Assembly: GCF_032854445.1 (NCBI RefSeq)
Contig: NC_088305.1
Span: 3,635,152 to 3,699,151 of the forward strand
DNA length: 64,000 nucleotides
Reading direction: 5' to 3'
From: Liolophura sinensis
Lineage: Eukaryota > Mollusca > Polyplacophora > Chitonida > Chitonidae
Below, one piece after another: positions 42,784 through 43,404 of this stretch. Position numbers and translations under genes: made by a program. The notes beneath the pieces were generated by a model. It ran no database searches. It was not told the origin of the DNA and saw only the letters and a list, made by a program, of their open reading frames with translations. The first letter of the stretch is position 1. Each line of letters starts with the position of its first letter.

Positions 42784-42855
42784 TTACTGTGGCAGAGACT
42801 TCAAGATGGCGTGGACTTCTTCAGCCACTGCGGCCAGGGCAAACTCAAACTGCTC
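42784..42855 (-). CDS. PTPRN: PTPRN-like gene, terminal coding exon
   Basis: This is the last exon of an IA-2/phogrin-type receptor pseudophosphatase. The acceptor is 'gtctgtctctttcag' before GAGCAG. Its 24 codons start EQFEFALAAVAEE and end HAILKSLPQ then TAA. Vertebrate IA-2 proteins end in a very similar LKALPQ. It encodes the last helix of the PTP domain. The phase (0) fits the preceding exon. Its start is the right-hand member of the 107-bp tandem copies in the intron, but only this copy carries the full coding end; its tract lacks the extra AG found in most decoys. Confidence 0.95.
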   Translation of the reverse strand, partial: EQFEFALAAVAEEVHAILKSLPQ

Positions 42856-43319
42856 CTGAAAGAGACAGACAAATGGATGATTGTACAACAGGCAACGAAG
42901 TTAAATGTATACTACGGTTTACTACAAAAAACTGGCCAGGACAAACTCAAACTGCTCCTGAACAAACTGGCAGACAAACACACAACTGTACAACAGACAA
43001 CAAAGCTAAATGTATACTATGGTTCACTACATAAACCTGTGACCAGGACAAACTCAAACTGCTCCTGAACAAAATGACAGACAAACACACAATTGTACAA
43101 CAGACAACAAAGCTAAATGTATACTATGGTTCACTACATAAACCTGTGGCCAGGACAAACTCAAACTGCTCCTGAACAAACTGACAGACAAACACACAGT
43201 TGTACAACAGACAACAAAGCTAAATGTATACTATGGTTCACTACATAAAACTGTGGCCAGGACAAACTCAAACTGCTCCTGAACAAACTGACAGACAAAC
43301 ACACAATCGTACAACAGGC
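42831..43319 (-). repeat. 107-bp tandem array duplicating the acceptor and start of the terminal exon
   Basis: Five units counting the real exon start: GAGCAGTTTGAGTTTG begins at 43278, 43171, 43064, 42957 and 42855 (minus strand), spaced 107, 107, 107 and 102. Each unit has a T-rich tract ending 'ttcag' followed by the first eight codons, EQFEFVLA (EQFEFVLV in the 43064 copy). The four extra copies carry Val where the real exon has Ala. After the eight codons each decoy diverges and stops: [15 protein letters not shown] at 43278, the same length with Gly in place of Val at 43171 and 43064, and [11 protein letters not shown] at 42957. All lie in the last intron (43330-42856), the first decoy only 52 nt after the donor. 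Confidence 0.93.
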
Positions 43320-43330
43320 AACAGTTTTAC

Positions 43331-43404
43331 CTTAGTCTTCACCATCCCCATTCTTTGGTCACGGATGTGCTCCAGTGTGGCAGCGATGTCAATTTCCTTT
43401 GCGC
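43331..43404 (-). CDS. PTPRN: PTPRN-like gene, penultimate coding exon (Q-loop region)
   Basis: The acceptor is 'ttttgtttcag' and the donor is AAG|gtaaaa. It encodes (G)[17 protein letters not shown], then MGMVKTK, 74 nt, phase 1 in and 0 out. IA-2 relatives and most PTPs read QRPG at this place; here the proline is Met (QRMG), an unusual change near the Q-loop. Exon borders were set by joining in frame with both neighbours. Confidence 0.95.

Follow-up and report, generated by a model that had tools for sequence, protein, structure and literature searches.

A tandem array with copies of the last splice acceptor in a PTPRN-like gene of the chiton Liolophura sinensis: a probable mirage minisatellite

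The DNA analysed here, called the window, is a stretch of 64,000 nucleotides of contig NC_088305.1 of the chiton Liolophura sinensis (positions 3,635,152 to 3,699,151). The assembly, GCA_032854445.1, was deposited as L. japonica, and a correction renames the species Liolophura sinensis (PMC12441733). The genome that we searched comprises 609,464,459 bases in 632 contigs; the assembly table of the chiton genome paper gives a total of 609,495,693 bases (PMC11068029).

Spliced alignment to human IA-2 yielded six exons of a PTPRN-like gene within the window. These exons and the last intron, all on the minus strand, are listed in the order of transcription, with the evidence for each in brackets.

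55535..55654, minus strand: PTPRN exon (spliced alignment to IA-2)
54194..54360, minus strand: PTPRN exon (spliced alignment; PF00102 match at this place)
48023..48076, minus strand: PTPRN exon, KVNKSYRGRSCPIVVHC (likeness to PDB chains, spliced alignment)
46898..46962, minus strand: PTPRN exon, read on from the preceding exon (spliced alignment)
43331..43404, minus strand: penultimate coding exon of the PTPRN-like gene (translation, spliced alignment to human IA-2, phmmer with 2i1y/2qep)
42856..43330, minus strand: last intron, 475 nt, donor gtaaaact (Tandem Repeats Finder, translation, spliced alignment)
42784..42855, minus strand: true last coding exon, EQFEFALAAVAEEVHAILKSLPQ, and stop (translation, spliced alignment; human IA-2 is matched to its C-terminus)

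The first two "exons" of the same alignment (63629-63537 and 59009-58956) contain a stop or sit in a repeat and were discarded. A first-pass annotation, made from the letters of the window, had called the gene a PTPRN (IA-2) homologue, and this call proved right in a phmmer comparison with PDB chains and in the spliced alignment. Among the PDB chains, the only sequences compared, human PTPRN2 and PTPRN matched the window exons with E-values of 3.5e-39 and 9.8e-36, and the next PTP followed at 9.6e-16. For the C-terminus, the PTPRN2/PTPRN structures (2i1y/2qep) gave 3.1e-19 and 3.6e-18 in the same set of chains, and the next match was at 1.3e-5. By this protein likeness, among PTPs the gene is nearest to PTPRN/PTPRN2. 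Its spliced translation carries the signature motif HCSDGTGR, which fits the form HCSDGxGR, with Asp replacing Ala, that we take to be the hallmark of PTPRN/IA-2.

Several other features of the window and genome were noted along the way. The window holds 25 matches to U5 spliceosomal RNA on the minus strand, 24 of them at 256-22087 and a lone one at 32899-33019; many are spaced at steps of about 624 bp and form a gapped tandem array of U5 genes. Further minisatellites lie at 39188-39867 (115 bp), 49520-49842 (109 bp), 51437-52576 (30 bp), 56010-58112 (73 bp) and 58738-59108 (58 bp), and arrays with a period of at least 15 make up 21.6% of the window between 36 and 64 kb. Genome-wide, the PTP domain PF00102 has at least 151 matches (scores were computed for 150 of the 397 first-look candidates), and many of these lie in regular clusters on contigs C7, C3, C15 and others; judged by these matches, the clusters are a large expansion of PTP genes. 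Contig C99 (108,685 bp) holds seven COX1 matches at steps of about 15.5 kb, a chain of mitochondrial genomes that is probably an assembly product. The mitochondrial gene order, read by eye from open reading frames (as were the gene names besides COX1), fits the ancestral mollusc order.

Nearly the whole of the last intron is a tandem array, which Tandem Repeats Finder placed at 42827-43323 with a period of 107, 4.7 copies, 91% matches and a score of 798. Its units carry additional copies of the acceptor and start of the last exon, referred to here as decoys 1 to 4 in their order from the donor, the first intron base of which is 43330.

42827..43323, minus strand: 107-bp tandem array of 4.7 units (Tandem Repeats Finder, direct repeats, unit alignment)
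43234..43278, minus strand: decoy 1, exon start 43278; 52-nt intron; extra AG 9 nt upstream
43127..43171, minus strand: decoy 2, exon start 43171; 159-nt intron; extra AG 9 nt upstream
43020..43064, minus strand: decoy 3, EQFEFVLVTGLCSEP, exon start 43064; 266-nt intron; clean pyrimidine tract; best acceptor score of the decoys
42925..42957, minus strand: decoy 4, exon start 42957; 373-nt intron; extra AG 9 nt upstream
42900..42904, minus strand: TTAAC, which for the true acceptor is the best branch-point-like match (A at 42901, position -46)

The sequence TTCAG/GAGCAGTTTGAG (the slash marks the splice boundary) was found in all five units, with exon starts at 43278, 43171, 43064, 42957 and, for the true exon, 42855, which gives steps of 107, 107, 107 and then 102. 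In the unit alignment, the intron end makes up about 75 nt of a full unit and the exon start about 30 nt. Only the first 24-33 nt or so of the last exon have been copied. The unit next to the donor is truncated by it, and decoy 1, which has no front part of the unit, lies almost directly 3' of the donor; it resembles the exon until about codon ten (ATV vs AAV). Behind the copied exon part, decoys 2 and 3 have CAG/GTTTAT. A genome search with a 574-bp query covering the region found this single match and no second one in 609 Mb, in a procedure that scores only top candidates and leaves very frequent words aside. A dispersed repeat or a second copy of the gene was rejected on the strength of this one match among the best candidates scored.

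Most of what the first-pass annotation had said about the decoys was reproduced. The coordinates of the four extra acceptors came out identically in the motif search. Translation showed that all four decoys keep the frame and have Val in place of Ala, and a stop follows 7, 7, 7 and 3 residues past codon 8 in decoys 1-4. The 52-nt intron needed for the nearest decoy and the extra AG in the pyrimidine tract of three of the four, absent at 43064, were likewise found. One designation has to be given up: the copies had been described as decoy terminal exons, and they are duplicated 3' splice sites in an array that contains neither AATAAA nor ATTAAA. Of ten variant hexamers, one is present in the array (AGTAAA, 42923), and, in the hexamer search, AATAAA first appears beyond the true exon, on its downstream side.

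42101..42106, minus strand: first AATAAA downstream of the true last exon

With AATAAA and ATTAAA both missing from the array and the next AATAAA at 42106, use of a decoy would most likely lengthen the existing last exon and bring its stop forward. An alternative terminal exon was rejected, as the stop of the decoys comes without an AATAAA or ATTAAA of its own in the array. Nor are the copies mutually exclusive exons, as only the first 24-33 nt or so of the exon are duplicated. The earlier remark that such an mRNA could escape nonsense-mediated decay stands, given that the stop would fall within the extended last exon.

The units are not equally related to each other. Among themselves, decoys 2-4 differ at only 2-3 of 75 intron positions and at 0-1 of the first 24 exon positions; comparison with the true unit shows 13-15 differences over 72 intron positions and 1-2 over the 24 exon positions. 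Between decoy 1 and decoys 2-4, there are 8-9 differences over 52 intron positions. As decoys 2-4 are nearly alike but far from the true unit, we conclude that one diverged copy was amplified and that the unit on the exon side was left apart. Compared with the true unit, the exon part of decoys 1-4 looks less diverged than the intron part (Fisher p 0.03, 0.11, 0.34 and 0.06). This could hint at constraint on the decoys, but constraint on the true exon or homogenisation would explain it equally well, and with these p values we did not find constraint on the decoy codons convincing.

To judge the strength of the decoys, we used a yardstick of 43 introns with 44 acceptors from the same genome. 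Four of these introns belong to the PTPRN-like gene, and 39 come from eleven gene pieces that were found by protein likeness and not selected for repeats: 25 from six pieces obtained ahead of any scan for repeats and 14 from five pieces added later. The first set originally contained 27 introns, of which the last intron of L045 and the first of L047 were dropped as doubtful; from the 16 of the second set we dropped that of L022 (weak sites) and one that duplicates an intron of L046; of the nine pieces in the second set, two yielded no intron. The acceptor matrix takes in the true acceptor of the GNB5-like gene described below and leaves out 42855. Branch-point scores were calculated with a human matrix, which weakens them as evidence.

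Measured in this way, the true site stands above the PTPRN decoys. Its acceptor scores 15.4, with 39 of the 44 real acceptors lower, and decoys 1-4 score 10.2, 10.2, 13.4 and 8.9. By themselves the decoy values are not poor, as 17 to 37 of the 44 real acceptors are lower. An AG within 14 nt upstream was found in three of the four decoys vs one of the 44 real acceptors, and that one has it at 3 nt, in a NAGNAG-like arrangement. With the human matrix, none of the four decoys has a good branch-point match: their best matches score 0.6-1.0 (0-1 of 44 real ones lower), and the true acceptor reaches 4.4 (29 of 44 lower); the lowest of the real acceptors has 0.6, as low as the decoys. The place of TTAAC in the true unit is taken by TTAGC in decoys 2-4, and this region is absent from decoy 1. 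Due to the single shared ancestor of decoys 2-4, their lack of TTAAC counts as one event and not as three. The sampled introns have a minimum length of 197 nt and a median of 756 nt; none of the 43 is 159 nt or shorter, and two are no longer than 266 nt. On these scores, the decoys look weak with respect to branch point, extra AG (in three) and, for the nearest, the 52-nt intron. Decoy 3 (43064) looks like the only one that combines a clean tract with a possible intron length, still with no good branch point.

The PTPRN exon is not the only one in this genome with an edge inside a tandem array. Three of the 39 introns not selected for repeats have such an edge, in two of the eleven gene pieces, a small sample that leaves the rate uncertain. 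The arrays found are given below together with one from a separate search; the names GNB5-like and PP4C-like are presumed from alignment to human GNB1 and PP2A.

C8:52626001-52633000, minus strand, array at reverse-strand positions 2518-4917: GNB5-like gene (L047), 20 copies of 120 bp, acceptor side
C10:16940001-16948000, minus strand, reverse-strand positions 3022-6010: PP4C-like gene (L045), donor array, 31 copies of 96 bp
Same piece, reverse-strand positions 1594-1817: older two-copy duplication in L045, 76% alike, across another acceptor (alignment)
C1:36669383-36669910, minus strand: receptor PTP locus (L050), seven 66-bp copies of an acceptor and about 29 nt of exon

The GNB5-like array provides 19 decoy acceptors; behind each comes a copy of the exon's first 51 nt and then TGA. 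These decoys score 5.6-6.3 vs 6.2 for the true site, values that are low in the range of the species (5-8 of 44 real acceptors are lower). In the PP4C-like donor array, AAG/GTTAGT occurs 31 times and AAG/GTTATT once, the true donor included, so that there are about 30 extra donors. In the receptor PTP locus, the true acceptor and its seven decoys share one score, 3.7, which is low. Weak decoy signals are thus not general for such arrays, since the GNB5-like and PTP decoys score like the true site. The PTP locus came from 60 loci, 30 obtained via a protein search and 30 via a PF00102 search, in which the ends of the matches need not reach exon edges, and no rate is derived from them. Another of the 60 (L024) is the PP4C-like gene again. 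L051, where one copy was flagged, was not counted: it has a 79-bp array just behind a donor, and by eye the edge is not crossed.

An ungapped copy search over 61 edges found two with copies, the GNB5-like acceptor and the PP4C-like donor. This undercounts, because two cases escaped it: the 76% duplicate and the PTPRN acceptor, the copies of which align only with a 3-nt gap. Overall, three of 78 edges lie inside arrays, and minisatellites make up 15.5% of intron bases (naive P for three or fewer, 0.001). If the introns that hold edge arrays are left out, minisatellites amount to 2.0% of intron bases, and with so small a sample we claim neither enrichment nor depletion.

A known kind of repeat fits the PTPRN array well. 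In the amphioxus globin gene BflGb6, the 3' end of an intron and the 5' part of an exon are repeated as a unit of 150-160 bp, with six and three units in two haplotypes, and RT-PCR suggests no interference with splicing (PMC3087553). Lancelet PGBD5, Adh and troponin C are given as further cases of such "mirage" minisatellites in the corresponding part of PMC3902484. As far as these two texts go, the amphioxus mirages (Adh3, the globins BflGb6 and BflGb9, troponin C and PGBD5) share with the chiton array a unit that spans an exon-intron edge, on the acceptor or the donor side, beside a genuine exon. Splice signals kept in many copies and a boundary unit distinct from homogenised inner units are further points in common (PMC3087553, PMC3902484).

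The PTPRN array has, in one haplotype, the sequence features of this kind. The unit is of minisatellite size (107 bp x 4.7, 91%), it spans the exon-intron boundary and carries a splice site in five units, and the unit alignment shows homogenised inner units with the end unit apart. It differs from the amphioxus mirages in its mollusc host, its 107-bp unit and its decoys that appear to have no branch point. We regard it as a mirage minisatellite in which a diverged copy has been amplified, the true unit has been kept and decoy use is rare, with a probability of roughly 0.83. We infer the following history, in which either TTAAC or TTAGC may have come first. A tandem duplication with one breakpoint in the intron and the other some 30 nt into the last exon would have copied the intron end, the acceptor and the first codons. 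A diverged copy, with Val for Ala and lacking the branch-point-like TTAAC, would then have been amplified inside the intron, and the unit at the exon end may have stayed intact because it encodes protein. Splicing would normally join 43331 to 42855 and likely ignores the array, or nearly so. Decoys would be used rarely, probably mostly decoy 3 (43064), which would lead to the extended last exon with its early stop.

Two readings had been offered in the first-pass annotation, a neutral minisatellite that captured an exon edge and a real C-terminal isoform switch. The former is the better supported, by the similar arrays in unrelated genes and by the poor decoy signals; for the latter we found no positive evidence, and it is least weak for 43064. 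In a regulated switch, one or more decoy acceptors would be used depending on tissue or stage, and the last PTP helix would be replaced by a short tail. All four frames are open and in phase, but an open frame is no sign of use, because the exon start has simply been copied. Decoy 3 with its clean tract has an acceptor score near that of the true site (13.4 and 15.4), and its intron length is within the sampled range. Against a switch speak the missing good branch-point match in all four decoys, the AG in the exclusion zone of three and the intron lengths of two (52 and 159 nt), which are below all 43 sampled. The tails moreover vary between copies, the array offers no AATAAA or ATTAAA, and the presence of similar arrays in unrelated genes points to a habit of the genome and not to a device of PTPRN. 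We consider a switch distinctly unlikely.

A control by unproductive splicing, in which decoys are used at some rate and give truncated protein or unstable mRNA, so that copy number tunes PTPRN output, appears very unlikely. The early stop behind each of the four decoys would suit it, as would the 19 GNB5-like decoys, which equal the true acceptor in score and lead to TGA. For PTPRN, however, the stop lies in the last exon and classical decay is therefore not expected, and the amphioxus mirages are reported, in the parts of PMC3087553 and PMC3902484 considered here, to leave splicing undisturbed.

It is highly improbable that the birth of an intron or exon is under way, with a decoy recruited as a new exon and the array as a new intron. 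A model of this sort is drawn for the amphioxus globins (PMC3087553), and decoys 2 and 3 do have CAG/GTTTAT behind the copied exon part; by eye, however, this is a poor donor, and we saw no sign of use here. An assembly artefact has a next to negligible chance: tandem repeats are error-prone, but the PacBio HiFi reads (8.3 kb mean length, 14x, as stated in the assembly part of PMC11068029) far exceed the 0.5-kb array, and the array copies differ from one another.

Two other known phenomena resemble the PTPRN array. Introns reportedly arise from tandem arrays or from duplication within a gene (Zhuo 2007; Gao and Lynch 2009). These share with the PTPRN locus the tandem copies with splice signals inside a gene, but here no new intron or exon is seen, and the intron is assumed to be older than the array. 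Mutually exclusive duplicated exons likewise involve extra coding copies of an exon in the adjoining intron; they differ in that just 24-33 nt or so of the PTPRN exon are copied and that by eye no good donor follows.

For molluscs, we found no report of exon-edge arrays among the matches listed in the open-access literature. A copy-variable 27-bp minisatellite is present in the intron of an abalone gene (PMC6905558), and earthworm metallothionein genes have intron minisatellites (PMC12783039); in the portions of these two papers at hand, crossing of an exon edge is not stated.

Taken alone, the PTPRN locus is probably one further mirage minisatellite, and a silent one. The wider pattern is that a mollusc has exon-edge arrays in several of its conserved genes; arrays of this kind are otherwise described, as far as the cited parts of the literature extend, just for amphioxus. 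Tentatively, and somewhat short of an even chance, we suggest that such arrays are a common habit of this chiton genome, in which conserved genes may hold 19 acceptors or about 30 donors with signals on a par with the true site. The true site would then be chosen by position or exon definition and not by site strength, or a standing cost of decoy splicing would be paid or put to use; PTPRN would be one of very many loci, and copy number could act as a heritable dial on splicing. The GNB5-like gene, in which one donor faces 20 near-equal acceptors, is a natural test of 3' splice site choice, and the PTPRN array with its weak-looking decoys provides the contrast case. The larger interest lies in how frequent these arrays may be in chitons and in how splicing proceeds where the decoys are no weaker than the true site.
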